DNA of 44,783 nt from Lentisphaeria bacterium (GTDB lineage Bacteria > Verrucomicrobiota > Lentisphaeria > Victivallales > UBA1829). The notes below the pieces were generated by a model. That model had not been told where the DNA came from. It was given only the letters and a program-made list of their open reading frames with translations, and did not search any database. Made by a program: the position numbers and the translations under genes. Shown here piece by piece: positions 1,097 to 43,838 of the stretch; the first letter of the stretch is position 1, and every line of letters begins with the position of its first letter. The DNA is taken from assembly GCA_017503545.1 (NCBI GenBank), contig JAFVSW010000141.1:1-44783 (forward strand). The letters are read 5' to 3'.

Positions 1097-2551
1097 ATGA
1101 TGACAGAGACTCGAATAGCAGAACTTTTCAGTATCAATCCGACATCCGCAGAACCGTTCCGAATCCAACTGGAACGGAAACTTGCGCTATTCATCAACTC
1201 CTCTGCGCCGGGGACTCCGATCCCTCCGGAACGGATTCTGGCAAAATGCCTCGGCATATCCCGGGTAACAGTCCGGAATGCTATAACGCCATTTCTGACA
1301 TCAGGCAGGATCATCCGTCATAACCGTAATGGGACCGTGGTAGCGGAGAAACAGCAGCAGGAACCGGAACTCAATGTCAACGAACTGGCGATTGGTCTGC
1401 CGTGGCATCTTGCGCCGGTAGTGACATTAAAATTTCTGTGTTATGAAACTTTGCCGGCGCAACGTGTTTTCTGGGAAAGTGTGGTCGGGGAATTCAATGC
1501 GGCACATACCAATTGCCAAATAGAAACAGTCTGGATTGACAAAGTACTGAAGGGACAGGCGATGCGCAATTTTATTACCCAGAACGGGATTGATATCATG
1601 CTCCATTCGCCGATGTATGAACTGCCATTGGAATCATTGGCGGCGGAATTACCACAGGATATTCAGGATATTGCAGAGCATGACCAATACATATTCCATG
1701 AGATCAAGATCAGTGAAAAAGCGCAATTCCGCCGGATGTTTCCTTATCAAATAGTATACAGCCGGATATTTTACAACAACGGGCTGGCAGAAAAATGCGG
1801 TCTGAAAAATGTCAGTGAACGGCTTTTTCATAATGACAAAACGGGGTTGATGCGGGAAGCATTACCAAAACTCGATAAAGGGAAAACAGCATCCTCCCAC
1901 ATCTGGTGTCATCTGGCTTATCAGGGGATCATACCGGATGAAAAAAATTTGCCGCTTATCATGACTGTGCTTGAAAAATTATGTTCGGTAAAAGAATTTG
2001 ACAATGCGTTCATGCTCAAACAGGAATATTCACTTGATGATGCCGTCAAATTTGTCAACGGTAATATGCTTTTCTTTAACGGGCTTTCCTCCCAACTGCA
2101 AACGGTCGGAATGCCTGCATTTGATATGAAACAACAGATTGCAGTACAGCTTGAAGGGACATTCAAATTTGGAACTCCGGTAGGAATCATTATTGCGGAA
2201 CAATGCAGCAACCGGGAAGCGGCAGGAGACTTCATCCGTTATCTGAACACTGACAAGGTACAGAAAAAAGTGGCAGATATCAAAAATGAATTTCCGGTGA
2301 AAAAAGATTTGTTCCGTTATGCGGCAGAAAAACAATGCGGACTGGATGCAGAACGCGCGGATATGTTATTGAAAAAAACATTTCTGTTCCAAAACACATC
2401 ATGCGATCAGGAGTCGGCAGTCTTTTTCTGCATATTCAAGTGTCGTGATCTATTGATAAAGATGATGGAAGGTGAACTTTCTGCCGCAGATTGTGCCGCT
2501 GGAATTCTGCAATATTGGAAATTGTTCAAGGAAGGAAGCCAGACCTCATGA
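1097..2551 (+). CDS. GntR-type HTH regulator fused to a solute-binding-protein-like sensor domain
   Basis: This 484-aa protein has no signal peptide or membrane segment. Residues about 20-88 form a GntR-like winged helix (IPPERILAKCLGISRVTVRN, then a wing ending GTVVAE). After a short linker, about 110-440 resembles an ABC sugar-binding protein of the MalE type: VTLKFLCYE opening strand, VVGEFNAAH, a central IVYSRIFYNN segment, and the C-terminal AAGDFIRYLNTDKVQKK helix typical of family 1 binding proteins. Ordinary GntR regulators carry FCD, UTRA or aminotransferase domains, so this is a one-component regulator that probably senses a sugar in the cytoplasm. The start at 1097 (ATGATG) follows AGAAGG. 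It probably controls itself through the operator at 1056-1087 and perhaps the exported-protein genes downstream. The ligand is unknown. Confidence 0.8.
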   Translation: MMTETRIAELFSINPTSAEPFRIQLERKLALFINSSAPGTPIPPERILAKCLGISRVTVRNAITPFLTSGRIIRHNRNGTVVAEKQQQEPELNVNELAIGLPWHLAPVVTLKFLCYETLPAQRVFWESVVGEFNAAHTNCQIETVWIDKVLKGQAMRNFITQNGIDIMLHSPMYELPLESLAAELPQDIQDIAEHDQYIFHEIKISEKAQFRRMFPYQIVYSRIFYNNGLAEKCGLKNVSERLFHNDKTGLMREALPKLDKGKTASSHIWCHLAYQGIIPDEKNLPLIMTVLEKLCSVKEFDNAFMLKQEYSLDDAVKFVNGNMLFFNGLSSQLQTVGMPAFDMKQQIAVQLEGTFKFGTPVGIIIAEQCSNREAAGDFIRYLNTDKVQKKVADIKNEFPVKKDLFRYAAEKQCGLDAERADMLLKKTFLFQNTSCDQESAVFFCIFKCRDLLIKMMEGELSAADCAAGILQYWKLFKEGSQTS

Positions 2552-2653: not shown

Positions 2654-3391
2654 ATGAAGAAAAAATTCACACTCATCGAACTGTTGGTTGTGATTGCCAT
2701 CATCGCAATTCTCGCCGGCATGTTGCTCCCCGCTTTGAACAAGGTAAAAACAAAAGCGCATTTGGCTTTCTGCGCCAATAACCTGAAACAGATTTCACTT
2801 GCGTTCAGTCAGTATACGACTTCATTCAATGATTATTATCCGTCTGTCCGCACTGCAACGGGCAATACCGGCCTCTGGAGTTGGATGCTGAGCAATGAAT
2901 TGAAACTTATTACATCCGCCTCCTTTGTTTGTCCCGGCGCAGCAAACTTCACGATTCGCGACCGTGTTGAAGCATTGAAAAAAGGCAATGCCAGTGTCGA
3001 TATTCAAGTCAATTCCATCTCTTACGGATATAATCCGGGTATCCCGGGGAATGCCGATGCCGCCGGGTTGAATCCCGGGGATGCCTTGAAAACGGCAGAC
3101 CCGGAAATCCCCACAGGCCGTTTCAAAACAAGCCGTGTTGTCAGGCCGAGTCTTACGATCATCAGTGCAAGCCGGGCTGGAATCGGTAGTGGCGACAGCA
3201 ACAAATCCATGCATTCCTTTATAGGCAGTTTTCCGAATCCGGCGACCGAAAATTATCATGACCGTACTGCCGGTATTCTCTGGGTGGATGGACATACCAG
3301 CACCGTTGTAAGACCGGAAATGACCCTGATTAAAGCGGATGCCGACACAAAACTCAAGAATGTATATTATCATTACTCCCTTGCAAAATAA
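2654..3391 (+). CDS. Prepilin-type N-terminal cleavage/methylation protein with H-X9-DG C-terminal motif
   Basis: This 245-aa protein begins [20 protein letters not shown], a short basic leader followed by the type IV pilin/type II secretion pseudopilin hydrophobic helix with the conserved Glu at +5. The residue before the cleavage point is Lys, not the usual Gly. Near the C-terminus, [12 protein letters not shown] matches the H-X9-DG motif of a large prepilin-like family that is expanded in Planctomycetes, Verrucomicrobia and Lentisphaerae. Such proteins are exported and probably inner-membrane anchored or surface associated; their role is unknown. No pilus assembly genes are nearby. It is 9 bases from the glycosidase-like gene downstream, so the two are likely cotranscribed. 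Confidence 0.88.
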
Positions 3392-3400
3392 GAGGACAAC

Positions 3401-6400
3401 ATGAAATTCTTCCTGAACATTCTCTTATTGGCACTCGGTTTCACATTGTGTGCCGGAACAGCATTTTCTTTCGGCAGCAATGCATCATGGAAAAAGAGCG
3501 TTCCTTTCGGAAATTTTTCCATTTCGAAAGATAATATTTTAACTCTTGATGGAAGAAGTGCCGGGATCGATCTTGAAACAAAACGACTCCATAATCCCGA
3601 AAAAGGGATCACTCTGATGGCAGTTGTCAAAATCAAAAAGTTCCCGTATCTTACCGCAGCGGAAAAGCAGCACGATGCCATTTTCTGCCGTCAGCATCAA
3701 TTTATCATGGGAATTGATTTTGACCGCTTTTATGTCAATTTCCATAACGGGAAAAAATGGTTTGCTCCGTTATTGGTCAATGTAAAACTCAACGATGATC
3801 AGTTTCACTCCTATGTCATGACGGCACAGCGGAATCGTGTGGAATCCCAGGGAGATGACAAGCTGAATATCAAAATGTATTTTGACGGGAAACTGGTGTT
3901 GGAGCAGAATATTCCTAATGCAGCCATAGCTGACAGTTCCGGCAAAATCAATTTAGGTTATTCCTCCAGTTTTGGGAAATTGTGGTATCTGGGCGGCGAA
4001 ATCATAGACGCAAGAGCATATAACAAAGTTCTTACCGTCAACGATGTTGAAGATTACACAGCAAAATTCAAAGAAATCAAAAATCAGCCGCAGCGCAGTT
4101 TACGCCTTAATAAACAAAATCAGGCGTTACTGGATTCTCTCCCGAAAGAAGGTTCGCCACAACTCCTTGCGGCAGTATCAGCAATCCGGAACACTGCCTT
4201 CCGAACAAAAAAAGTCAATTGGCAGAAAGCTGCAAAACTCCTTAAAACGGCAAAAGTCAATGACCGTCTTCTGGCGGAGCATGGTGTTTACCAGTACAAA
4301 CTGGAAACTGCGCTCCTGACCGTTATTACCGGCAAAGATTTTGCCGATGCTGTTTCTCTGTATGACACCGTAAACAAACGGGAACTGCTGATGAACGACA
4401 ACCCGTTTTTCCGTTTGCGGATCAAAAATGAAAAACTCTCGCCGGTCACTCCGGGGACAGTTTCTGATTTTGTAAAGATCAATGACAGACAATTTACTCT
4501 GCGCTATAAATTCAAAAATGCCTCTGCCGCCGTAAATTTTGATTGCACGGGGAATAAAATACAGTATTCACTGAAAGCAGTTCCGGGGAAGGATGTCAGT
4601 TTCGATAACGTGGAATTCCCGGCACTTGAATTGAAAGCATTGGATCCGGCAGCCGCTTTGTTCGCCCCGGTAATGTCCGGCGTAGAACATCCGGAAGCCA
4701 TCAAAAATAATATCAGTTATGAACTGGAATACCCCCGTGGCATTGCCTCCATGCAATACGGTGCATTTTATGATAAAAACGGCGGCTTATTCTGGTCGCC
4801 TGCCGATCCTCTTGCCCGGGCGAAACAATTGAGTTATGCGGCAGGTGGCAACCGGGTCAAAATCGTATATCAATGGTATCCGGTGGAGAATTCCGTGTTT
4901 GCCCCGGGATGTCCGGTACGGTTGGAACTGTTCAAAGGGAATTGGTATGAAGCCACCATGCTTTACAAGCAGATGCTGAACGATATTGATGCTCTTTACT
5001 GGATCAAAAAGCCCCTGCCCCGTAAAGATTCTCCGGAATGGTTGAAAAACAATACTCTCTGGTTCCTTCACGGCGGTTCAAAACTGGATTCCATGGCGCA
5101 ATTCAAAAAGATCCGGGAATATCTCGGGCTGCCATTCGGCGTACACGTATACCGCTGGAACAGCAAAACATTCGACAGGGATTATCCGCATCACCGTGGA
5201 TTGCCATCCTTCCGGGATCTGATCGCAGAATGTCACAGCATGGGTATCCGGATCACACCGTACATCAACGGCAGATTATGGGAAACTCTTGACCGGCGGG
5301 AAGAAGATTACCTGTATTCCAAAGTCGGGAAAGCCAATTGCGTGCAACGCAAAGACGGCACGATTGCCATGTCCGTTTTCAATAAAGCCAATTTCGGAAT
5401 CATCTGCCCCTACACACCGATTTATGAAGCAATGATGCGTAAATCCTGTTTTATGTTGGAAAAAATGGGTGTCGACGGCATCTATATTGACCAGATCGGT
5501 GCCGCTCACCATATCGTCTGTTACAATAAAAAACATGGACATGCTGTCCCTGACGATACTGCCTGGTTTGAAAAAGGACATCATAAAGTCTTTTCACGCA
5601 TCCGGGCGGAAGCAAAAGCAAGAACCCCGGACATGATCCTGACCACGGAAGACAATGCCGAAACATGCATCCGGAACTTTGATGCCCTTCTCTGTTGGCG
5701 TTGGATGTATAAATGTCAAGTACCCGCATTCTCTGCTGTATATACAGGAAAAACGCAACTTATCGGGTTGACTTATGACTATAAAAAGGATGCGGAAGCC
5801 TCTTTCGCGAAAGCCGCATGGCAGATTATCGGTGGAGGGCAGATCGGCTGGTTTACCAAAGATTATTTCTGTGCGCCGGAAAAACATGATTTCCGTGTCT
5901 GGGTCAAACAATTGATGCGTTTGCGCCTTGCATTGATCGACTTTTTCAATGAAGGCGAAATGGCTGCACCCGCAAAATTCAGTAAAACGGTCAAAGAAAA
6001 AATTCTGTTCTGGGGCAGTCATGGCACTCTGCATGTGAATACTCCGGAATTGTATTCCACCTCCTGGCGCAACAACAAGATTCATGCCACGATCCTGACT
6101 AACAATACATCAAAAACGGTCACCAACAGTATGACGTTCACCCCATGCGGGAAACAGGGCAAAGTCTATGTTTTTGAAAATACCGGTACAGAAAATACTT
6201 TCGCGTATACCGGGAAAGTAAAGTATGATTTCAGTCTGAAACCGCAGACCTTCCGGATCCTGTTGAGTATTCCGGATTCAGAAAATGCCAATACGTTACT
6301 CAATGCAGTACGTATGCAGTTCAAACTGATTGCTGCCATCCCGGCAGAAAATGACCCGTTTGTCAAAATTCAGAAAAAAATGGCAGTTTATGATCCTCTC

Positions 6401-6874
6401 TCTATGATCACAGAAGTCAAAACAGATCAGTTTGAATGTCAATTCTTCCCCGGTGCAATGTATCCGACCTCTTTCACGCGGAAAGACGGTTCCCCGCTTC
6501 CGCAGGTACGCTTTTCCGATCAGGTAAAAATCGGCAGTAATGTTTATTATCTTGACTGCGATCGCTGGGCAGAACGCAAAATATTGGAAAATACCCAGGA
6601 TAAGTTTACCATTGAGCTGAACGGAACATTCTGCACTTCCGCCAGAGAATATGCCGCAAAAGGAGTAAAGGCATGTTACCGCTACACATTCCACCGGACA
6701 AAAGCGGAAATCGAAGTGGAAGCAAATGTCACAATGCCTGCGGGGACTGCCGCCGAACCACAACTGCTGCAACTGGAATGTAACAGCAAAACAACACCAC
6801 TGACCTGGAATTTTGAACCACTGCAGAAACGGCAGAACATTTATTCAAAGAAAGGAAAAATCCGGATAAAATGA
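3401..6874 (+). CDS. Large exported LamG + DUF6259-like glycosidase-type protein
   Basis: This 1157-aa protein has an N-terminal signal peptide (MKFFLNILLLALGFTLCAG). Residues about 30-230 look like a concanavalin/LamG sandwich, with a DGRSAGIDL strand, MYFDGKLVLEQN and GGEIIDARAYNKVL. Residues about 330-540 look beta-rich, like a glycosidase super-sandwich. About 545-900 is TIM-barrel-like: WFLHGG, FGVHVYRWN, GIRITPYINGR, DGIYIDQIG (about 690) and LTTEDNAE (about 746). The Asp and Glu of the last two are the best candidates for catalytic acids. The arrangement matches DUF6259 proteins, which are related to retaining glycosidases. It is probably periplasmic or surface exposed and cuts or binds a glycan; the specificity is not evident. 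Its stop overlaps a possible ATG at 6871, but the next gene starts more convincingly at 6913. Confidence 0.8.
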   Translation: MKFFLNILLLALGFTLCAGTAFSFGSNASWKKSVPFGNFSISKDNILTLDGRSAGIDLETKRLHNPEKGITLMAVVKIKKFPYLTAAEKQHDAIFCRQHQFIMGIDFDRFYVNFHNGKKWFAPLLVNVKLNDDQFHSYVMTAQRNRVESQGDDKLNIKMYFDGKLVLEQNIPNAAIADSSGKINLGYSSSFGKLWYLGGEIIDARAYNKVLTVNDVEDYTAKFKEIKNQPQRSLRLNKQNQALLDSLPKEGSPQLLAAVSAIRNTAFRTKKVNWQKAAKLLKTAKVNDRLLAEHGVYQYKLETALLTVITGKDFADAVSLYDTVNKRELLMNDNPFFRLRIKNEKLSPVTPGTVSDFVKINDRQFTLRYKFKNASAAVNFDCTGNKIQYSLKAVPGKDVSFDNVEFPALELKALDPAAALFAPVMSGVEHPEAIKNNISYELEYPRGIASMQYGAFYDKNGGLFWSPADPLARAKQLSYAAGGNRVKIVYQWYPVENSVFAPGCPVRLELFKGNWYEATMLYKQMLNDIDALYWIKKPLPRKDSPEWLKNNTLWFLHGGSKLDSMAQFKKIREYLGLPFGVHVYRWNSKTFDRDYPHHRGLPSFRDLIAECHSMGIRITPYINGRLWETLDRREEDYLYSKVGKANCVQRKDGTIAMSVFNKANFGIICPYTPIYEAMMRKSCFMLEKMGVDGIYIDQIGAAHHIVCYNKKHGHAVPDDTAWFEKGHHKVFSRIRAEAKARTPDMILTTEDNAETCIRNFDALLCWRWMYKCQVPAFSAVYTGKTQLIGLTYDYKKDAEASFAKAAWQIIGGGQIGWFTKDYFCAPEKHDFRVWVKQLMRLRLALIDFFNEGEMAAPAKFSKTVKEKILFWGSHGTLHVNTPELYSTSWRNNKIHATILTNNTSKTVTNSMTFTPCGKQGKVYVFENTGTENTFAYTGKVKYDFSLKPQTFRILLSIPDSENANTLLNAVRMQFKLIAAIPAENDPFVKIQKKMAVYDPLSMITEVKTDQFECQFFPGAMYPTSFTRKDGSPLPQVRFSDQVKIGSNVYYLDCDRWAERKILENTQDKFTIELNGTFCTSAREYAAKGVKACYRYTFHRTKAEIEVEANVTMPAGTAAEPQLLQLECNSKTTPLTWNFEPLQKRQNIYSKKGKIRIK

Positions 6875-6912
6875 AAAAAATCATTCTCAACTGCATAAAG
6901 GAGTCAAACAAA

Positions 6913-7755
6913 ATGAAAAAACTTACAATGCTTGCTTGTCTCTTTGCCGCAGTCACGTCCTTTGCGGCTCTCCCGGATTCCATCATACTGGAATCCGGAA
7001 ACGTCCGGGTACGCCTTGACAGCAGAAAACGGTGGAATATGAACCGGATCGAATACAAAGGAGAATTATTGTGTGTCGATAATTCCCATTCTCATTATGG
7101 TGCAGTCTGCCGTCCGATCGATTTCAAATTCGGCGTAGGCTCCGGACATGATGAATCCGGCTTTGCCGAACAGGTGGATTCGCTTAAAATTTTTGCGGAC
7201 GGGCAAGAAATCAAGCCGCAAAAAAATATCCCTGTCACCGGAAAGAAAATAGAAGTTGAGAAACACTCAAAACTTCTCACGATCAGCGTAAAATACAGGA
7301 TCGTTCTTGAAAATGATTTGATTTTTGAATTTGCAGAAGCGGTTGCTGAAAAAGATATAAAATTACATCATTTTTACTTTTTCATGCACCCGTGGAGTCC
7401 GCGGTTTACCAATGCGTACCTCAAATACAAAGATCAAACCACATTGAATATCACATTCAAATCCAATCATTCTTTCCCGAACCGCAAATTCGCACCCTAT
7501 TGTGCATGGTATGACAAAAAATCAGGTTTCGGTGTGGCGACCATGTTCGCCACGGTCAAAGGCGGAAAAAAACTGCAGCGTTTTATCTGGGACAGACCCC
7601 AATACCGCAAAGATTATCTCTGCGACTATTTCATGGCGAAATTACCGGCAGGATATGCCATTGCCTATCGCTCAACAACCGCATTTTTCTGTCAAAAAGA
7701 CAATCAGAAGTGGATCTCTGATGCAGATAACGTATTCGAAAAAATCAAATTTTAA
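6913..7755 (+). CDS. Exported protein of unknown family (paralog 1)
   Basis: This 280-aa protein has a signal peptide (MKKLTMLACLFAAVTSFA). The start at 6913 is preferred over an in-frame ATG at 6871 because AAAGGAG lies 9 bases upstream and the signal peptide begins here; the paralog at 8015 has the same leader sequence. The mature part looks like a beta-rich fold. Landmarks shared with the paralog are SIxxESGNVRVRLD, RWN (about 36), SGHDESG (about 77), FFMHPWS (about 156), FKSxxSFPNR, AWYDxKSG and DRxxYRKDYLCDY (about 228). I do not recognise the family. The conserved His, Asp, Trp and Arg residues would suit a carbohydrate-active or binding protein, but that is inference from the glycosidase-like neighbour. 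Confidence 0.85.
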   Translation: MKKLTMLACLFAAVTSFAALPDSIILESGNVRVRLDSRKRWNMNRIEYKGELLCVDNSHSHYGAVCRPIDFKFGVGSGHDESGFAEQVDSLKIFADGQEIKPQKNIPVTGKKIEVEKHSKLLTISVKYRIVLENDLIFEFAEAVAEKDIKLHHFYFFMHPWSPRFTNAYLKYKDQTTLNITFKSNHSFPNRKFAPYCAWYDKKSGFGVATMFATVKGGKKLQRFIWDRPQYRKDYLCDYFMAKLPAGYAIAYRSTTAFFCQKDNQKWISDADNVFEKIKF

Positions 7756-7763
7756 CATTGTAT

Positions 7764-7985
7764 GAGGTAATTTCAAAAGATCGGAAAAATTTGACTGAAA
7801 AAAGATTGTTGATGAGATGAAAATGGTAGTTTTGTTCCGGCGTCGCCATACGGCTATGCCGCGACAAGGTGAGGATTATTTACCATCCACCTTCGCCAAG
7901 GCTGCGGCGGACAAGCCAAAAACGCCCCGTTTTCAGATCGCAACAAGAGTTTTCAGACAGTTTTGAAGACTTTTGAAATTCCCTC
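7764..7985 (+). mobile_element. MITE-like repeat, copy 2 (complete, 222 bp)
   Basis: The ends are GAGGTAATTTCAAAAG and CTTTTGAAATTCCCTC, imperfect inverted repeats. Both flanks read TGTAT (7759-7763 and 7986-7990), a likely 5-base target duplication. The interior has an outer shell shared with copy 3 (GACTGAAAAAAGATTGTTGATG, CGTTTTCAGATCGCAACAAG) and a G+C-rich core from CCGGCGTCGCC to GGCGGACAAGCC that can fold into imperfect hairpins. It separates the two exported paralogs and ends 29 bases before the second. No transposase is encoded, so it would have to be moved in trans. Confidence 0.85.
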
Positions 7986-8014
7986 TGTATCCAATAGAAA
8001 GGAATCAAACAAAA

Positions 8015-8845
8015 ATGAAAAAACTTACAATGCTTGCATGTCTCTTTGCCGCAGTCACATCGTATGCGGCGATCCCCCAATCCATCACCATCGAATCCGG
8101 TAATGTCCGGGTTCGCCTGGATGGAAAAAAACGCTGGAACATCAATAAAATCGAATGGAAAAACCGTCTGTTCGGTATTGATGAAGGCGGCGCACATTAC
8201 GGAACTGCGTTCCAACCCCAGGGAAGTAAATTCTTTATCGGCTCCGGCCATGATGAATCCGGCGTAGGAGAAAAATTCATTTCTCTCAAAATCATCGTTG
8301 ATGGAAAAGAGATAACACCGGTGGGAAAAAATGTGATCAAAGGCAAAAAAGTCCGGGTCGAAAAAATTTCAGAAATCACAACTCTGAAAGTAAAATCCAC
8401 ATTCACAATTGAAAATGATGTCCTTTTGGAAACGACAGAACTCACTGCTGCAACACCGGTCAAAATCAATTTTCTCTACTTCTTCATGCACCCGTGGTCA
8501 ACCCGGTTCAATAAATTCCACACAATAAAAACGGATGGTTCCAAACTGGATATCACATTCAAATCTGATAACTCATTTCCAAATCGCGATTTCGTCCCCG
8601 CAGCAGCATGGTATGATACAAAATCCGGACTGGGTGTAGTCTCAGTCATCAGAAATATCAAAGGTCAGAAAAAACCTATGCGTTTTCTGTGGGATCGTAC
8701 CAGTTACCGCAAAGATTATCTCTGTGATTATGCCCATTCCACTTTCCCTGCCGGCAATATCGTGATCTATGAATGTAAAACAAGATTCTTCCAGCAGCTT
8801 GATCCGAAAAAATGGATTGCCGATGCAGAAAAACTTTTCCAATAA
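8015..8845 (+). CDS. Exported protein of unknown family (paralog 2)
   Basis: This 276-aa protein is clearly a tandem duplicate of the gene at 6913. The signal peptide MKKLTMLACLFAAVTSYA is nearly identical, and the same landmarks follow in order: SGHDESG, FFMHPWS, FKSDNSFPNR, AWYDTKSG and DRTSYRKDYLCDY. The start at 8015 has GAAAGGA upstream. The upstream in-frame extension would begin with TTG inside the repeat element's terminus, so it is rejected. The C-terminal halves are best conserved, while the region around residues 100-150 has diverged, consistent with an older duplication kept for related but distinct targets. It is exported; the function is unknown. Confidence 0.85.
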   Translation: MKKLTMLACLFAAVTSYAAIPQSITIESGNVRVRLDGKKRWNINKIEWKNRLFGIDEGGAHYGTAFQPQGSKFFIGSGHDESGVGEKFISLKIIVDGKEITPVGKNVIKGKKVRVEKISEITTLKVKSTFTIENDVLLETTELTAATPVKINFLYFFMHPWSTRFNKFHTIKTDGSKLDITFKSDNSFPNRDFVPAAAWYDTKSGLGVVSVIRNIKGQKKPMRFLWDRTSYRKDYLCDYAHSTFPAGNIVIYECKTRFFQQLDPKKWIADAEKLFQ

Positions 8846-33995: not shown

Positions 33996-36900
33996 TTATG
34001 CAAGAACCTGCATATTGTTTCTGTATTCGTCGTTATTCAACGCAATGGAAGCGGCTGCGCTGGTGACAAGAACATCATAATTGGTGTTGAGGTTTGCGGA
34101 CGCATCTGCATTGCCGATTTCCAGATAATAGGTTTCGCCGTAATGCATTGCCACATTATCCAGTTCACCACGTGCAACAACCATCAACTGACCATAGATT
34201 TCCTGCCACAATGTTGCCGTGAGCGGAACCGTATTACCTTCAATATCGAAGGAATAACTGCCATCGGCTTCCACTGTAATCTGACGGAAGTCACGATCAT
34301 CACTGAAGCCCAGCCATTCGTCGTCAACAATGTTCCGTTCCAATTCATTACCGGCAAGCGTTACACGGAAGGCGGCATTATCACGTGCCTGACCGAATGT
34401 GTTATCCAGAATATTGGATTCTGTATAATCCACTTTGGAGGCAGAGAGGATATAAGCCGTATCCACGGTACCATTGTGTGCCACAACTTCCAGGGTGTAA
34501 GTATTGCTCAAACTCTTTTCTTCATTCCAGAGGAACGTGCCGCTCCACTGACTGCTGCTGTTGATGGAAATGGTTTCAATGCTGATTCCGTTACTGTTGC
34601 GGATCACAAGGTCAACACCGGATTCCGCACCAAGCACTTGCAGATTGATCGTTACAGCTGCCGCAGCATATTCCCCGTCAGCCGATTCCCCGTCAAGAAC
34701 AATGTTCCATGTATCGGATGCACCGCCGTGGACGGTTCCGCCCACTGTACGATCACTCCATTTGAAGTTCGCTTCGGAAGCACCTTCCAGAACAAAGTTA
34801 CCGGACTTGACTGCGGCTGCGGCATTGCCGTGTGCATCGTATGCCATGATCGTGTAACTGTAAGTTCCAAAGTAAGGAATATTTTCCCAGACAAAGGAGG
34901 TGGCGGTGAGTTCCTGATTGATTTCAACCACGCCGCCTCTCTGGATCAGGATGGAATATTTGCCGGTTTCCAGATTGTCCGTCATAGCATCCCAGGAGAA
35001 TGCAGCGGTATTGCCGGTAACAGTGCAAGTCACAGATTCCGCATCAAATTCCGGACGGACTACGTCATAGGTAAAGCTGCACCGGGAAGAATATGCACCG
35101 TAATTTCCGGAGCAATCCAGTGCGCGGACGGCGAACTGATAGGAACCGTTAGCCAAATCATTCTGATTCAGATTCAGCAAACCGGCATCTTTTGCATTCG
35201 TAACAATGTTCTTGAGCAATGTTTTGCCCGTTGCATCATAGATTGCCACTTCATATTTATCCATACCGAAGGCATCGTTTACCGTACCCCAGGCAAGGGA
35301 GAGAAGGCCATCTTCCACTGCATCGTATACATTAAGTCCATCCGGAGCAAACGGGGCAACAGTGTCTTGGATGATATGATCCGCATCATTGTGTTGCGGA
35401 TCGATCAGTTTGAACGATGCACCGGCAAACCAGTCGGTCGCATTACCCAGAGAGTCGATCGCACGGACATCCCAGAAGACTTCATTGTTTGCCATACCCA
35501 TCAGATAACCGGCACCCTGTCCGGCTTTATCATCCAGCGTGAATGTGGTGGATGTGGTGGTAAAGGTGCGCATATTGATCTTTTCCTGATCGCTGCCGCC
35601 TTTGCCATAGGTCCGGATTTCATAAGTAATACCGTTTTCATCTGCAAATGTATTTTCCAGATTGAAGGTAACTGCAATCTCCTTCACCGTATAGGTGTAA
35701 GTGTAGAACGGATGTTCGTATTCTTCAACGATAAGCCAGTCAACAGTGAGAGCCGCACCATATGCCAGATTGAGGAATTGCCCATCCGGAGCCGCAGAGT
35801 CAACCGTGATCGTCTTATCAGAAACGAGTTCTTCTGTATTTCCGGCACTGTCATATGCCACGACTTTCCAGTTATATACACCATTTCTGCCAGAGAAAAT
35901 ATCTCCGTTGACCGTGATGGACAGCATGTCATCCTTTTCGGTGGTATTGCCGGGCAGAACAGCACGTGTGGAAACCGTTACAAATTCGCCGGAAGCATCG
36001 GTATAACCGCAAACGATTTCATATTTTGCAATACTCAAAATCGGGTGTACCGCCTTGCTCCAGGTGAATGTGGTCTGAGTCCGGGAATTATCCAGACTGT
36101 TGTATTCGTAAAGGACATCCGTTTCATTGGTAACGAAAGATAATCCTTCATTACCATTCCAGGTGCCGGAAGTTTTTGCAGAAACGTTGCCGACATAGTC
36201 CGTTGCCACGATTTCCCAAGTGTAGTTATCCACTGCCAGAGATTTTGCATGGGCTGTATACACACCGTTGTTGCATGTGATCTCAAAATTCAGATCGGAT
36301 GCATTACGGCCTTTTTCGATTTCAATAACGGTCCAGGTACTGTCATTTTCCCCACGATAACGGAAGGTGAAGGATTTGATACCGGAACCATCGTTTTTGC
36401 CGGTACCTTCATCCTTGGAAGTACGGGGATCATAGAACACAAATCCGTATTCGCCGTTTTCGTTCAGTGCCAGAGACTGATCATCGGAATAAGACCAGAC
36501 CAGTTTTGCATAAATCTTGTCTGTTGCCGTTTCAGATACTCCAAACCGGGATTCAATATCATTGACTTTGACCGGAGCAAGTGTATCCGCTACCCAGGAA
36601 TCTGTAAGTTTGCCGGATGTATTACCCGCATAGTCAACAGAACTCAGTGTCCAGGTATAAGTGCTGTTCGGCAGCTGCATGGTCAATTTGTAGTTGCCAG
36701 CCTGATCACCGTTCGCAGCCGTGTAGACCAACGACCACAATGTGCCATTGTCAAATTTGCCGTTCTGTGTATAAGTGGTCACGCCGGCTGAATTCTGACC
36801 GATCAGATAGCCATTGAACTCCTGACCTCTGTAAAGTTCAAAATCATAACCCGTGATCGTAATGGTTTCATTACTGCCGCCGCCGGAACAGGTGACAATA

Positions 36901-39900
36901 TAGGATTTAACACCGCAACCGGCGCTGTCTCCGGCTTCCTTGTAATCGTCAACCGCAGCATCCCATTCCAATTCACCCGTCAGAAATTCACTGGAACCGC
37001 TGAAGCCGGAAACGGTGGAATACCGGTCGGAAACAACACCATCTCCCAAATCCGGTTCTTCGATCCACGGTGCCGCTTTATCTGCTACGATTTCTGCACC
37101 TTCCACGTAAACAGATTCATTACCCGCATAGTCGATTGCCACAACACGGTATCTGTAATTGACCGTGAACAGACCATCGTCAATAATCAGACAATCGGTG
37201 TATTCACCGGCGGAAGCATTAATGGTCATGGAACTGTCATAAATACCGGATCCGGCAACACCCCATTCGATCCGGTACTGTGCAACACCGGAACCTGCCG
37301 CGGCTTCACCAGGCACACAGAAATCTCTGACAGCATTATTATTGATCGTAATCGTGATGTTGGCAATCGGAGTCGTCGCAGGGATACCATCTGCTGACAT
37401 TTCGGTCCGGTACGTATAGGCGATAGAACTGCTCAACGCATTCATATTGAAATCAGGCGCAACGGTATCACCGGTCCAGATGCCATTATTGAATACCAAA
37501 CTGTTTTCGCCATCAATTCCGGGGGCGGTTCCAACCGCATCCACATTCCAGGTGCAGGAATTTCCAACATCCGCATGGGAATATTCAAACGTGTACTTAC
37601 CGGTTGCAGCATTGTAAGAAATAACTGCGTTCTGACCATTGATGTCAACCGTATTACTGTAGTCCGCCGTCAACCCTGCCGCAACTTGACAGGTTCCAAT
37701 AACTGTACCGCTTTCATCATAAAGACTGATCACAAAACGTGTGACCGCAGCACCCGGAACCTGTTCCCCGATAACACCATTGACTTCTACGGCATCCCAA
37801 GTAAGAGACCCCATCAATACCCCGTTTTCAAAACGGGCGGCATCTGTAATCCGGAACATACTGGATCCTGCATTTCCGTTACCTTCCCAGGTTCCGGAAA
37901 GTTTTTCGCCGGAAACATTGCCCAGTTTATCCGTTGCAATGATTTCAAACTGATATGTGCCATTTGCCAATGTTGTGGAGTAAGAATAGGCGTTAAGACC
38001 ATCCTCCGCATTCACGGTAACAGAAATTTCATTGATCCGTTCGCCATTGCTGCCGACTTTCCAATAAGTCAGGGTGTAATAAGCAACACCGGAACCTGCG
38101 GCAGTGTCAAACATGGGGTTGTACCAGTAATCCGTTGCCGCATCCCAGGAAACACTCACGCTGATCAGATTCAGCATGGAATCACTATCGACAACCAGAC
38201 GGCTGTCCGCGGTGGATTCAAAAACCGGACCAAACTGGTCAGCAGTCCATTCACCGGCAAGAGCCTGGGATTTATTGCCCATAAAGTCAACCGCATAGAA
38301 CTTCCAATTGTATGCACCGTTGGCAATATTGGTAATGTGGTTCTGCCTGTTCAATTCAAACAGATCAAGCTGCCAGGTGTATTGATCATCTGCATTCAAG
38401 ACCAAATCTGCGGCATCGATGGTGATGGAATATTCTTTTCCGTTATCCATCCAGGTGAGAATGTAAGATTCCACACCGGAACCACTGCCGTTATCAATCC
38501 ATTCATCCCCGTCTTTGACCCAATATTCACCGGCTTTTGTCCAGGTGAAGACCGGTGCCAGACTGACAATGCCGTTACTTTCATTGACAGCCATTTCAAC
38601 AGAAATGTCTGTATAGTCCGGGTGATCCACCATAAATTCATCAACTTGTTGTTTGAACTGGGGTGCAACACGGTCCGCTTCCCATTTGCCGGTCTTGGCG
38701 GCAGAGGCTTTGCCCTGATAATCGATCGCAGTCAATGACCAGTTGTAATCCGCATTTTTCAGGTTGACGATCTTCAGCTGATAACTGCTGACACCTTCCC
38801 GATGGCCGATATAGATCTTGCCGTCTTTATATTCCAGTTTTACCCAGGTATTGCCATTATCATAGGAATAATAGTATTCGGCATATTCCATATCCGCAGC
38901 TTGCGATGTCGTATAACTGAACGCATATTCCTTGACCCCGGCTTTGTCGTCCACCGCAGGTGACCAGGTCAATACCGCATCCATCATTGCGGAGCCGCCT
39001 TCTTCCCGGACGATCCAGCTCTGCGTGCCTTGCGGATCACGGTTGAAGTTCGGGGCATTAATGTCTTCCAGGTAGACATGGAAGGGATCACCGACCGTCC
39101 AGGCGGATTTGTGCGGTGTACCGTCGAAATTATCCACCGCCTGAACACGCCAGTAAATGTACTGGGTATCTTTCAACCCGGACAATGTGATCTGATTGTT
39201 TGTAACTTCCAGACGGGAATAGGCATTGTTGCTGATTCCGCCATTGCCATTCGTATTATTGGTGAAATATGCGGTGATCGCCGCTTCTTCCAATACATCA
39301 GGAGACTGGAAGAATTCCACAACATAATTTTTAAGCCCGCAAGTGATATTTTCACCGGGTTCCCAAGCCAGAGTAACAACGGCAGATGCACCATCCTGTT
39401 CTTTTGTGCTGACACTGTTTTTAGCATCCGTCGGCTGATCGCAGAAATAAATATCCTGGAAGGCAGTTTCCATACCAGTATTAAGGTAAGACCATTCTTC
39501 ATAAGACCCGTCGCTGTTCACCGCAGTTACGCGCCATACAATATTACCGGCATTCTGAGTCGCTGCCAAACCTTTGATTTCGTGTGTAAAATATTTTTTG
39601 TCCGATGCCGCAAAATTCACGGCGACCGGATTGCTGTACACACCATCCGTTTCCACCACATATTCCAGACGATATGCTTTGCCCGGATTGTTGGATTCAA
39701 AAGACAATGTCACGGTCTTGCTTGCAATGTTGGTGATCGGGTCTGTTGCATCAGCAGCAACCGCACCCAGATTGGTCAGAATTTCAGAATCAGAGATCTG
39801 CCACGGATTTTCCGGATTGAAAGATTCTCCGACTTCTTCGTATACGCGCACGCGCCAGTCAATATCGTTCGCCGCTCCGGAGTTGACAAAGGAGAAATAC

Positions 39901-42900
39901 ACTTTTCCATCGTCACCATATACCGTTTTTCTGGAAACCGCAAAGGTGGCACCCGTCTTACGGTTGTAAACTTTGTCTCTGGAAACGATCAGAGAGGTAG
40001 TAACACCATTCAATTCGTATTCAAACAGATATTCCGCTTCCGGATCTGTGTAGTCCCAGCAGAAGGTCAATTCGTTTACCTTGCTGTCTTTATCGTAACT
40101 TTCTGTGGAGGCAACCAGATTTTCAGAGCCGTCAGCCATCAAATGACGGGAAGATTCCACTTCCACGCCGCGACTGTAAAGCGTTTCATCCCCGTTCCGC
40201 TGAACAACAGTCACACGCCACTGCAGGACTTTATCCCCCTGGGGCATGACCGGTAACGCAATCGTCTCAGAAATCCGTTCGATCAACTGAGACTGACCGG
40301 CAACATCAACGCTCGTCCAATCCAGATCCCAGCCCGCAACATCATTCCCCACACGGTATTCCAGAATGTAACTGACATCGGTCTGCGCAGAATTATCCCA
40401 GCTGAACTCAATTTCTCCGTTACCGTTGATCCAGGCATCCAAACCGCTGACGTCACTCAATACCGTTTTGTCCAGATGGAGATTGTTGTTGTTCACAACC
40501 GGAGCATTGACCATATCGTCCAAAGAGTACCATTCGCCGGTAATGTCGATCCCGCTGCCCAAAGACTGGCGGACACGCCATTCAATGCGCTGGTTGGTAT
40601 CGATACCATTGATCTGCAAAGAAGTCACAGGGTTCAAATCTGAACTCTTGAGTACTTCACGGGTGATCGTTTTTGTCCGTGTTTCATTTCCGTTTCCATC
40701 GGTGGTGATAATGTAATATTCAAAGATATAGCGGACTTCAGAAATATCCACATTGTCATCTTCCCAGGAAACCGTAACGGTACGTGTTTCTTTGTCATAC
40801 CATTCATGCAAATTGCTCAAACCAACTTCAAACGGAGATGCCTGATAGTTCTCGTCGGGCAGAACATCCACAATCACTTGAACATTACCGCTGACAAAGT
40901 CCGCATGAGCTTTGAAAATTTCCGTTCCGTTTGCGCTATCGTAAACGCGGATATAGTTACCGACTACGGCTCCATTATCTTGGATTCCAGCATGATAAGC
41001 AACACGTGCCGTAAAGTTGTTCTGGCGGAATTCATAACCGGTAAGATTATTGTCTGTTACAACCCACGTGCCGGATGCATCATAATAACCGATTTCCGCA
41101 ACAACATTCCCCTGTTCCAGAGTCTTCAAGCTGATTCCGTCATATTTCAATTCGATCGTCTTCAGCGCTTCGACAAAATAAGCATCCTGATTGTTCATCA
41201 ACGTGAAAGTACGGGCTTGCCCGTTATCCAGAACAACGTCGTTCAGATTGACAGAATACAGTACCGGAGAAACCTGACCGGATGTACCGGAAACTGTAAA
41301 GTTCCCGTTCATGATCGGACCACCAGTCTCATGATCTTCTTCACGCAAGGTCTGATTGTTCAGGTTGAAGATCACGTTCAACGTACCCATTGTACCGGTG
41401 ACCCAGTTACCGACTTCAACATCACCGGTAAGGCGTGCGTTGGAGTCAATGATCAAGGTATCAAAACCCGCCTGGAATGCCAGACTACCATAAAGTTCTG
41501 CCCCGGCTGCCAGTTCGATTTTATCGTTATAGACATTGTTCGTTGTATTACCGCCATCCACAGTAAGAATGACTCCATTATTCGCATCAATATCCCCGGC
41601 AATACGCAAATTCCAGGCAGAGGTCTGACCGCCAATGGCAATACCATCTGTATCAATCGTGGCAATAATGTCAAATCCACCCGTATCTCCGGTTGTGGAG
41701 ACGAACTTGCCGACATTCAATGCTGCACCTTCAAAAACAGCATTGTTATAAAAGTCTACGTGCACATTGAAAATACCGCCAAGAGCTTCCCCTTCAAAAG
41801 TGGAAACATCAATGCCCATCGTAGTAATCGCAACATCATCCGGACAGTCCGCATAATTCCCAACCGTAACAGTCGGCATGAAAAGTCCATCATTTACCGT
41901 GATCTTGCTTGCATTGATCCCGATGGCTTCCGAAGTCTGAACCATACTGTAGTCTACGCTGACATTGATCGTTTGCAGGAAGTTGCCGTTGATGGTAACA
42001 TTTCCGCTTGTATTGATCCCGTAAGCTGTTACATCATAAGCGTGAGCAGCAGTTTCAATTCTTTCGATCGTACGATCGACCAAGGTATAGTAATGGTAGG
42101 GGACTCCTTCTGCGTCCTTTTTCGTATACATCGCACCAAGCAAGGTCACATTCGCATCACCGGACCGACCAGTGTAGAAGCAGTTGCCGGGAGTAAGAGT
42201 CGTTTTGTCTGCATTCACCTGTCTGGGAGAAATTCCGGCAGCTTCCCTATAACCCACATATTCGTAGTTGAAAATGATTTCTTCTCTTCGGGCACTCAAA
42301 TCGCCAACTGTCACATTCAACGTTCCGGCAGTAGAACCATTCACAACAAGTTCGCTTGCTTCAATTGCAGTGGAAATCACCTTGTTATCTGCAAACATGT
42401 TTTCATCAGTGAACAAATCCGGGTCCATATAACCCGGCTCACGTCCCAACTGATGCGCATGAAGTGCATTTTCATCCACTTTAGTCAGATCAGTAAGTTT
42501 GCCGTCTATATATTCAGCGCGATTGAGTCCATCAGCAGAACCAATGTGCATGTACTCGCCATGAAGCGTAATATTGGAAACATCGGCATTGATCGTGGTA
42601 CCATCTTTCATGCCGCCCATTTCAATTTTGCTGCCGTTCATGCCCTGCGCAACAAAAGAGTGACCCGTCACTGCTGAATTGTTTGTATCAACCACAAAAT
42701 CCGGGTCGATCATGGATGTAATTTTATCACGAAGGGGGTTTTCTTTAGAATCGGTAGCAGTCCCGGTCATAAAGGTGTACATGCCATCGCCGTATTTATC
42801 GATGTTCTTTTTTGCCAAATAATACGTACCACCATTATTGTCAGCAAAAATTTCAGAACCGACTATAATATTACTGACCCCGGTACTCAAATTGCCGGTC

Positions 42901-43838
42901 CAGATCCCATTGATCGTCAAATTACCCGTTCCCTTTGCAACACCGGTCACACCCACAGTGGAATTGGTCAACATACCAACGGACTGGAAGGTGTTGCCGG
43001 TCACAATCGTGGTATTATAACTCCGAACTCTCTGCTGCCGAACATTCGCAATAACACTTCCGGACATGTTGTTTTCGATTGAAATACTGCTTGCACGCAA
43101 ACCGTTACCGAGAACACGGATATCGCTTGTAAGAGAATGAACAGAAACCGTTTTTCCATCCAATGTCGAGATTGTATTCGGCTCGTTTGTACGCGCACCA
43201 TCATAAGAATAAAGTGTTGTGAACGTGCCTACACCTGAGCCACCTTCCAGATACGTATGCAAACTGCCTTCCACCGTCAGAGAACCACCGGCGATCACTG
43301 CGGATACATCGATTTTTTCACTGGAAGAAATCAGGTCAGTATTGGTCATAACTTCCAGATTTTCATGATCAGCATAAATTCTGGAATACTGAAGTCCGAC
43401 ATTTTCTCCAGCATGGAGATAACCGGTTGCATTGGCAAAATCAATCACGCCATTACTGGAAAAACGAACGCCGGATGTCAAACCATCATAAATACCACAG
43501 CTTCTGACAAGGATCACATTTTCGTAATCGTAAGCACTGTCGCTTGTCCGTGTTGCACCGATCGTGATTGTATCGTTGCTGCCTTTAAAAGTCACACCGT
43601 TATACTCATCAAAGATTTTATCTTCCACAACGTAGAAAGAATGATCCATCATATTCTCTCTTAGGGTATAACCTTTTTTGTCGGTATCCGTATAAGCAGA
43701 GAATGTTACAGCGATATCACCTCCAGCATCACGATCACTTGCCCGGAGTATGTAAAAGTTAAAATTCGTTAAATCGGGAACTTCAAACAATGCAGGTGTT
43801 ACCTGAAACAAACGGTCCAGATTTTCATTGTACGCCAT
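33996..43838 (-). CDS. Giant modular repeat protein (beta-helix-like N-terminal part, FN3/Ig-like repeats)
   Basis: This 3280-aa protein has no recognisable signal peptide (MAYNENLDRLFQVTPALFEV). Residues about 1-930 are Gly/Asn/Thr-rich with many short beta strands (ITVNDGLFMPTVTVGN, TINGNFLQTINVSV), like beta-helix adhesins. About 950-1590 contain FN3-like modules with alternating TVSWEDD- and YIFEYY-type strands and IDWRVRV-type endings. About 1590-2930 has roughly ten units of 80-165 residues ending AxDxxGNxS...G.W.AD..AP.F (for example WEADRVAPQF, WTGDTVAPDF, WVADTLAPV). The C-terminal 250 residues are two jelly-roll, pre-peptidase-like domains. Such proteins are normally secreted adhesins or matrix proteins. 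AAAGGAA precedes the start. The C-terminus (NNDEYRNNMQVLA) may serve as an export signal; no exporter gene is nearby. Confidence 0.9.
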   Translation of the reverse strand: MAYNENLDRLFQVTPALFEVPDLTNFNFYILRASDRDAGGDIAVTFSAYTDTDKKGYTLRENMMDHSFYVVEDKIFDEYNGVTFKGSNDTITIGATRTSDSAYDYENVILVRSCGIYDGLTSGVRFSSNGVIDFANATGYLHAGENVGLQYSRIYADHENLEVMTNTDLISSSEKIDVSAVIAGGSLTVEGSLHTYLEGGSGVGTFTTLYSYDGARTNEPNTISTLDGKTVSVHSLTSDIRVLGNGLRASSISIENNMSGSVIANVRQQRVRSYNTTIVTGNTFQSVGMLTNSTVGVTGVAKGTGNLTINGIWTGNLSTGVSNIIVGSEIFADNNGGTYYLAKKNIDKYGDGMYTFMTGTATDSKENPLRDKITSMIDPDFVVDTNNSAVTGHSFVAQGMNGSKIEMGGMKDGTTINADVSNITLHGEYMHIGSADGLNRAEYIDGKLTDLTKVDENALHAHQLGREPGYMDPDLFTDENMFADNKVISTAIEASELVVNGSTAGTLNVTVGDLSARREEIIFNYEYVGYREAAGISPRQVNADKTTLTPGNCFYTGRSGDANVTLLGAMYTKKDAEGVPYHYYTLVDRTIERIETAAHAYDVTAYGINTSGNVTINGNFLQTINVSVDYSMVQTSEAIGINASKITVNDGLFMPTVTVGNYADCPDDVAITTMGIDVSTFEGEALGGIFNVHVDFYNNAVFEGAALNVGKFVSTTGDTGGFDIIATIDTDGIAIGGQTSAWNLRIAGDIDANNGVILTVDGGNTTNNVYNDKIELAAGAELYGSLAFQAGFDTLIIDSNARLTGDVEVGNWVTGTMGTLNVIFNLNNQTLREEDHETGGPIMNGNFTVSGTSGQVSPVLYSVNLNDVVLDNGQARTFTLMNNQDAYFVEALKTIELKYDGISLKTLEQGNVVAEIGYYDASGTWVVTDNNLTGYEFRQNNFTARVAYHAGIQDNGAVVGNYIRVYDSANGTEIFKAHADFVSGNVQVIVDVLPDENYQASPFEVGLSNLHEWYDKETRTVTVSWEDDNVDISEVRYIFEYYIITTDGNGNETRTKTITREVLKSSDLNPVTSLQINGIDTNQRIEWRVRQSLGSGIDITGEWYSLDDMVNAPVVNNNNLHLDKTVLSDVSGLDAWINGNGEIEFSWDNSAQTDVSYILEYRVGNDVAGWDLDWTSVDVAGQSQLIERISETIALPVMPQGDKVLQWRVTVVQRNGDETLYSRGVEVESSRHLMADGSENLVASTESYDKDSKVNELTFCWDYTDPEAEYLFEYELNGVTTSLIVSRDKVYNRKTGATFAVSRKTVYGDDGKVYFSFVNSGAANDIDWRVRVYEEVGESFNPENPWQISDSEILTNLGAVAADATDPITNIASKTVTLSFESNNPGKAYRLEYVVETDGVYSNPVAVNFAASDKKYFTHEIKGLAATQNAGNIVWRVTAVNSDGSYEEWSYLNTGMETAFQDIYFCDQPTDAKNSVSTKEQDGASAVVTLAWEPGENITCGLKNYVVEFFQSPDVLEEAAITAYFTNNTNGNGGISNNAYSRLEVTNNQITLSGLKDTQYIYWRVQAVDNFDGTPHKSAWTVGDPFHVYLEDINAPNFNRDPQGTQSWIVREEGGSAMMDAVLTWSPAVDDKAGVKEYAFSYTTSQAADMEYAEYYYSYDNGNTWVKLEYKDGKIYIGHREGVSSYQLKIVNLKNADYNWSLTAIDYQGKASAAKTGKWEADRVAPQFKQQVDEFMVDHPDYTDISVEMAVNESNGIVSLAPVFTWTKAGEYWVKDGDEWIDNGSGSGVESYILTWMDNGKEYSITIDAADLVLNADDQYTWQLDLFELNRQNHITNIANGAYNWKFYAVDFMGNKSQALAGEWTADQFGPVFESTADSRLVVDSDSMLNLISVSVSWDAATDYWYNPMFDTAAGSGVAYYTLTYWKVGSNGERINEISVTVNAEDGLNAYSYSTTLANGTYQFEIIATDKLGNVSGEKLSGTWEGNGNAGSSMFRITDAARFENGVLMGSLTWDAVEVNGVIGEQVPGAAVTRFVISLYDESGTVIGTCQVAAGLTADYSNTVDINGQNAVISYNAATGKYTFEYSHADVGNSCTWNVDAVGTAPGIDGENSLVFNNGIWTGDTVAPDFNMNALSSSIAYTYRTEMSADGIPATTPIANITITINNNAVRDFCVPGEAAAGSGVAQYRIEWGVAGSGIYDSSMTINASAGEYTDCLIIDDGLFTVNYRYRVVAIDYAGNESVYVEGAEIVADKAAPWIEEPDLGDGVVSDRYSTVSGFSGSSEFLTGELEWDAAVDDYKEAGDSAGCGVKSYIVTCSGGGSNETITITGYDFELYRGQEFNGYLIGQNSAGVTTYTQNGKFDNGTLWSLVYTAANGDQAGNYKLTMQLPNSTYTWTLSSVDYAGNTSGKLTDSWVADTLAPVKVNDIESRFGVSETATDKIYAKLVWSYSDDQSLALNENGEYGFVFYDPRTSKDEGTGKNDGSGIKSFTFRYRGENDSTWTVIEIEKGRNASDLNFEITCNNGVYTAHAKSLAVDNYTWEIVATDYVGNVSAKTSGTWNGNEGLSFVTNETDVLYEYNSLDNSRTQTTFTWSKAVHPILSIAKYEIVCGYTDASGEFVTVSTRAVLPGNTTEKDDMLSITVNGDIFSGRNGVYNWKVVAYDSAGNTEELVSDKTITVDSAAPDGQFLNLAYGAALTVDWLIVEEYEHPFYTYTYTVKEIAVTFNLENTFADENGITYEIRTYGKGGSDQEKINMRTFTTTSTTFTLDDKAGQGAGYLMGMANNEVFWDVRAIDSLGNATDWFAGASFKLIDPQHNDADHIIQDTVAPFAPDGLNVYDAVEDGLLSLAWGTVNDAFGMDKYEVAIYDATGKTLLKNIVTNAKDAGLLNLNQNDLANGSYQFAVRALDCSGNYGAYSSRCSFTYDVVRPEFDAESVTCTVTGNTAAFSWDAMTDNLETGKYSILIQRGGVVEINQELTATSFVWENIPYFGTYSYTIMAYDAHGNAAAAVKSGNFVLEGASEANFKWSDRTVGGTVHGGASDTWNIVLDGESADGEYAAAAVTINLQVLGAESGVDLVIRNSNGISIETISINSSSQWSGTFLWNEEKSLSNTYTLEVVAHNGTVDTAYILSASKVDYTESNILDNTFGQARDNAAFRVTLAGNELERNIVDDEWLGFSDDRDFRQITVEADGSYSFDIEGNTVPLTATLWQEIYGQLMVVARGELDNVAMHYGETYYLEIGNADASANLNTNYDVLVTSAAASIALNNDEYRNNMQVLA

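Follow-up and report, generated by a model that had tools for sequence, protein, structure and literature searches.

The published subfamilies of GntR regulators are FadR, HutC, MocR, YtrA, AraR, and PlmA (PMC4494728). AraR resembles the protein described here in carrying a GntR head on a sensor derived from a sugar-binding protein and in the principle of autorepression and induction by sugar; however, its LacI/GalR-type sensor has the type I fold, whereas that of the present protein is of type II and MalE-like. Escherichia coli NanR and NagQ share with it the GntR head and the same TGGTAT half-site (TGGTATAW in NanR, TGGTATT in NagQ; PMC4494728), but their effector domains are of the FCD type and the UTRA type respectively, and the present protein has neither. 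NanR binds just downstream of the polymerase site, where its dimers stack on (GGTATA)3 and block transcription, and sialic acid weakens this binding (PMC8012715).

Other likenesses lie outside the GntR family. SgrR and DsvR are cytoplasmic transcription factors with a type II solute-binding domain and negative autoregulation (PMC13060122); they differ in their winged helix, which is not of the GntR type, in their peptide-type SBP_bac_5 domain, and in their gene neighbours. The MalE-type proteins GacH, TMBP, MalE3, and XylA have the fold of residues 109-484 of the present protein, which differs from them in having no signal peptide, an N-terminal DNA-binding head, and no adjoining sugar ABC permease. 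Finally, DNA-binding heads, including the GntR head of FadR, have been placed on periplasmic binding proteins and such engineered chimeras work (PMC6079105); these are man-made libraries, whereas the family described here is natural and conserved.

The window, that is, the whole stretch of DNA analysed, comprises 44,783 nucleotides of a Lentisphaeria contig, and the regulator that it encodes is organized as follows:

1097-2551, + strand: GntR-SBP regulator gene, a single ORF of 484 aa with an ATG start
1205-1342, + strand: GntR winged helix-turn-helix (Pfam match at residues 37-82, helices from residue 21)
1355-1420, + strand: flexible linker, residues 87-108 (pLDDT below 50 at 87-104)
1421-2548, + strand: type II (MalE-like, sugar SBP) domain, residues 109-484 (AlphaFold, Foldseek, Pfam matches of the family, and PDB profile search)
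1445-1474, + strand: family signature E117-x-x-P-x-Q122-x-x-F-W126 in the beta1-alpha1 loop (E117, Q122, and W126 invariant in 20 members)

The initial annotation had read this ORF as a GntR winged helix joined to a full-length MalE-like solute-binding protein (SBP) domain in a cytoplasmic protein, and this anatomy of head, linker, and complete type II domain free of an export signal is confirmed by Pfam, a family profile, AlphaFold, and Foldseek, which agree. Residues 37-82 match GntR (PF00392) with an E-value of 1.1e-7 and 31.8 bits against a cut-off of 27, while residues 215-405 match SBP_bac_8 with an E-value of 1.1e-4 and 22.6 bits, below the cut-off of 27; taken from the window protein by itself, the SBP call is therefore suggestive, and it becomes firm through the relatives, the family profile, and the fold. 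The AlphaFold model of the whole chain (17-sequence alignment, single chain) has a mean pLDDT of 87.5 and is composed of a winged helix at residues 1-85, a low-confidence linker at 87-104, and alternating strands and helices up to the end of the protein. Its top Foldseek matches in the PDB are GacH, MalE, MalE3, and the xylobiose- and cellotetraose-binding proteins, with E-values between about 1e-15 and 1e-14 and alignments of some 400 columns. A separate search with a profile built from 19 C-terminal parts retrieved from the PDB the trehalose/maltose-binding protein 1eu8 (E 2.4e-13), along with numerous further sugar SBPs. In a Kyte-Doolittle scan of the window protein neither a signal peptide nor a membrane segment was found and the N-terminus is not hydrophobic; the highest 19-residue value, 1.5 at residues 97-115, falls where the linker enters beta-strand 1 of the model.

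The statement that this effector part is distinct from the FCD, UTRA, YtrA, MocR, and type I LacI types also holds, as none of them matches the window protein. In particular, FCD, UTRA, and aminotransferase domains gave no Pfam match in it up to an E-value of 10, and its MalE-like C-terminal domain of 376 residues is not the short domain of YtrA and PlmA. Peripla_BP gave no Pfam match and the fold matches are type II SBPs, not AraR-like; likewise, Pfam detected in the window protein neither the SgrR-type HTH and SBP_bac_5 nor HTH_1 and LysR_substrate, the domains of the LysR family. The NCBIfam whole-protein models all scored far below their cut-offs and were confined to the HTH region, except FadR, which reached residue 211. 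No partner ABC permease lies beside the regulator, which is flanked by genes for an amidohydrolase, a pseudopilin, and glycosidase-like proteins. No paper describing the pairing of GntR with a MalE-like SBP, or naming it as a regulator subfamily, was found in a literature search with most subscription journals outside its reach, and the architecture is provisionally regarded as undescribed. Some Firmicutes may likewise have listed proteins in which GntR and SBP domains occur together.

A survey of the class found relatives in 22 of 198 genomes belonging to 16 genera. Matches in a phylum-wide sample came from 14 of 388 genomes, only one of the 14 being outside the class; in its protein (L145), read by eye, an SBP again appears to follow the GntR head. 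Of the 20 aligned members, all match GntR, 10 match SBP_bac_8, and 9 match SBP_bac_1 at E<1e-3; three single chains (L010, L012, L013) exceed the curated cut-offs for GntR plus SBP_bac_8 or SBP_bac_1. The closest orthologue (L109) is 69 % identical to the window protein. An alignment-based scan of genome contigs found 7 loci, all in Lentisphaeria; the same contigs gave no matches with the single window protein as query, and tblastn against plasmids with two GntR-SBP proteins gave half-matches only, either GntR alone or a transporter SBP alone. One further family member (L152, G007:C70:22747-23433) contains 3 in-frame TGA codons and is probably a pseudogene.

That the ORF is an artefact, namely a chance reading frame, an assembly chimera, or a misread exported binding protein, is negligibly probable. 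The source assembly is indeed a draft of 353 contigs with 5.6 % contamination, but twenty relatives of the same architecture come from independent assemblies, including a genome of 5 contigs (G045) with three copies, and the pairwise identities of the HTH and SBP parts are correlated (r 0.78, Mantel p 2e-4). The two domains thus diverge in step, as expected for an old fusion, and this co-divergence together with the independent relatives rules out a chance join or a misassembly.

Two residues of the head, T58 and G79, and seven of the SBP part, E117, Q122, W126, P216, N227, F319, and F379, are invariant in the 20 members. The latter group bears on the possibility that the SBP domain no longer binds a ligand and acts solely in dimerisation or contact with proteins, in which case the regulator would be a constitutive autorepressor. 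The SBP parts are in fact highly divergent, with 15-67 % identity to that of the window protein, as such a loss would allow; nevertheless, seven positions remain fixed, and E117, Q122, and W126 are located in the beta1-alpha1 loop, which by analogy with MalE-type proteins would line the sugar pocket, making a domain without ligand very improbable.

The organism is a gut-type Lentisphaeria whose 4.06 Mb genome contains 66 GntR matches. Most of these lie in frames about 360 aa long, which corresponds in size to GntR + LacI-type proteins, an identity assigned by Pfam in single cases (L061, and L054 with a weaker match). Besides the window protein, GntR-SBP proteins are represented by L053 (SBP_bac_1, E 5e-9) and L060 (E 0.007), with a weak match in L057. 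L056 has no Pfam SBP match, but a lower-confidence model of it (pLDDT 70), from an alignment that included the window protein, again matches MalE-type proteins; L058 is a relative of L056 with 26 % identity. Since Pfam, within its limited sensitivity, found only three SBP_bac_1/8 proteins lacking a GntR head in this genome, the sensor use of SBPs appears at least to rival their use in transport. The derivation of the regulator's domain from a transporter, proposed in the initial annotation, is no more than plausible, no transporter SBP having been recognised as its parent.

Further unusual frames were observed in the same genome. L065 (1026-1970, + strand) is a GntR-SBP paralogue that ends in mid-domain at 314 aa, which may reflect gene decay or an error in sequencing, and L063 (341-3073, - strand) is an exported-looking protein with an SBP_bac_1 match (E 1e-18) whose 910 aa far exceed the usual length of a binding protein. 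In three proteins of 872-879 aa, L064 (524-3160, - strand), L066 (1-2624, - strand), and L067 (985-3603, + strand), on contigs C215, C294, and C217, a GntR-type head is joined to an apparent GH38 alpha-mannosidase, and a pseudopilin gene follows two of them. The Pfam matches are those of L064 (GntR, E 3e-10; Glyco_hydro_38N, E 6e-33; middle and C-terminal domains), L066 and L067 being assigned to GH38 by the motifs that they have in common with it. The HxD and D-x-FG motifs are retained in these proteins, while what we take to be the metal-binding His before the G-x-Y-T motif seems to be replaced; perhaps such a protein is an enzyme turned sensor.

The region upstream of the regulator gene contains the following elements:

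1030-1058, + strand: promoter-like TTTGCA - 17 nt - TATATT, matching at 9 of 12 positions
1055-1079, unstranded: perfect palindrome of 12+12 nt, TATTAATGGTAT-A-ATACCATTAATA, predicted operator over the -10 box and start site (single genome-wide occurrence, half-sites enriched in promoters of orthologues)
1077-1088, unstranded: third half-site ATACCATTAATA, a direct repeat of the right arm with 9-nt spacing, abutting the ribosome-binding site AGAAGG (1088-1093)

The palindrome that had been placed near 1056-1087 thus exists, and its 25 nt at 1055-1079 occur only once in the genome within 3 mismatches. The predicted operator TATTAATGGTATAATACCATTAATA combines a GT-N5-AC palindrome with a direct repeat, which fits the operator symmetry of GntR regulators, and is enriched in the relatives. 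In fact, GGTAT/ATACC occurs 30 times in the 75 nt upstream of 18 members, against 3.9 +/- 1.9 expected from dinucleotide shuffles (maximum 11 in 1000), and 16 of these 18 promoters, which are not 18 independent events since some members are close relatives, have at least one half-site; the 75 nt upstream of L118 and L119 have none. As a control, the promoters of 30 other GntR genes in this genome contain the half-site 4 times. Promoter sites matching at 9 of 12 positions are weak alone, 3 being found in the region where 3.3 are expected; by eye, a TTGCAT/TTGACA box with a -10-like box occupies the same position relative to the TGGTAT sites in L109, L110, L111, L115, L117, and L122, and in most relatives the half-sites lie just downstream of a -35/-10 promoter.

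The neighbouring genes are:

210-998, + strand: amidohydrolase family 2 gene upstream of the regulator (Pfam; also upstream of L109)
2654-3391, + strand: pseudopilin with N-methylation motif, DUF1559-like, probable target operon (Pfam/NCBIfam)
3401-6874, + strand: secreted protein of 1157 aa, laminin-G-like plus DUF6259 (glycosidase-like), probable target operon (Pfam; homologues in the same place in L109, L110, and L112)
6871-7755, + strand: secreted protein with no Pfam match, overlapping the previous gene by 4 nt; paralogue at 7973-8845

Downstream of the regulator, the pseudopilin, the DUF6259 protein, and the two secreted proteins are therefore encoded on one strand. The locus of L109 retains the amidohydrolase upstream and the pseudopilin and DUF6259 homologue downstream, with a calcineurin-like phosphoesterase inserted. 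A pseudopilin motif lies within 250 nt of the regulator stop in 12 of 18 loci, usually together with a large secreted protein that is often glycosidase-like; the neighbours across the loci include DUF6259, GH28, and pectate-lyase-like proteins. This adjacency was considered as a hallmark of the GntR-SBP family and rejected, since a pseudopilin lies directly behind 25 of the 51 short-frame GntR genes of the same genome; it is a shared cassette layout and not the mark of a subfamily. With about half of the short-frame GntR genes preceding a pseudopilin, the SBP regulators occupy the same slot as other GntR regulators, and both AraR-type and SBP-type proteins are present in this genome, each often followed by a pseudopilin gene. 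Overall, the genome has about 140 pseudopilin N-termini (TIGR02532), and a pseudopilin starts within about 0.5 kb downstream of 29 of 63 GntR genes. Elsewhere in the window, an ORF of 3280 aa (33996-43838, - strand) looks like a surface or secreted protein of very large size and repetitive sequence.

The position of the half-sites also helps to distinguish between modes of regulation. SgrR, composed of an HTH and SBP_bac_5, activates sgrS and represses itself (PMC7786190), and the present regulator could in a similar way be a ligand-dependent activator or a dual regulator that represses itself and, when bound to sugar, activates the cassette. A promoter-like site of its own just before the pseudopilin (2597-2624, 11 of 12 positions) would suit this mode, which is unlikely all the same, because no half-site lies between regulator and pseudopilin in the window and those upstream, on or after the -10 box, have the position of a repressor's. 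Binding of the regulator before the pseudopilin as a second site was dropped on the same ground, half-sites being few there in the other loci too. No terminator-like site was found between the two genes in the window.

As for the ligand, the proposal of a sugar sensor draws its support from the fold family and the gene context, and a sugar is the putative ligand. Iron-binding SBPs are among the weaker matches of the C-terminal profile, which makes the ligand class tentative. These matches, the presence of the glycerol phosphate-binding protein UgpB among the fold matches of the paralogue L056, and the reported binding of glutamate by SgrR (PMC13060122) would be compatible with a repressor controlled by something other than an oligosaccharide, for example a sugar phosphate, glycerol phosphate, an amino acid, or a metal. 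Against this stand the best profile and fold matches, which are oligosaccharide SBPs, and the glycosidase-like neighbours, so that a ligand of this kind is rather improbable.

The reading favoured here, and held to be reasonably probable, is that of a cytoplasmic, ligand-controlled GntR autorepressor with a MalE-type sugar domain, which would control the pseudopilin-glycosidase operon by read-through and be relieved by a sugar fragment. To the observed domain anatomy, family, conserved half-sites at their promoter position, and gene order, we add by inference dimerisation, repression over activation, read-through, the sugar ligand, and the direction of the allosteric effect. A dimer or stacked dimers would occupy the TGGTAT half-sites, both in the palindrome and in the third half-site, and would cover the -10 box and start of the regulator's own promoter, with consequent self-repression that would extend by read-through to the operon behind; read-through is open to doubt since the promoter-like site at 2597-2624 could uncouple the operon from the regulator. 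The inducer would be an oligosaccharide, probably a fragment freed by the operon's own enzymes and then imported, that may close the two lobes of the SBP domain and shift the geometry of the DNA-binding heads, lifting repression. The regulator is thus probably an intracellular sensor of sugar fragments and switches on the genes for sugar degradation that follow it.

Taken more broadly, chances are about even that these proteins form an undescribed, Lentisphaeria-centred GntR subfamily in which the oligosaccharide sensor is of the MalE type and the TGGTAT promoter-operator design is conserved, as part of a cassette scheme (GntR regulator, pseudopilin, large secreted hydrolase) whose sensors are interchangeable: LacI-type, MalE-type, or whole GH38 mannosidases. 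GntR regulators are classified by effector domain, and the GntR-SBP architecture adds a type absent from the published list; it is also a natural counterpart of the switches that engineers have made by hand from sugar-binding proteins. If their ligands are found, these regulators would be usable as they stand as intracellular biosensors for oligosaccharides of plant or host origin, and would help to reveal the substrates of the many poorly studied pseudopilin-hydrolase cassettes in gut Lentisphaeria.
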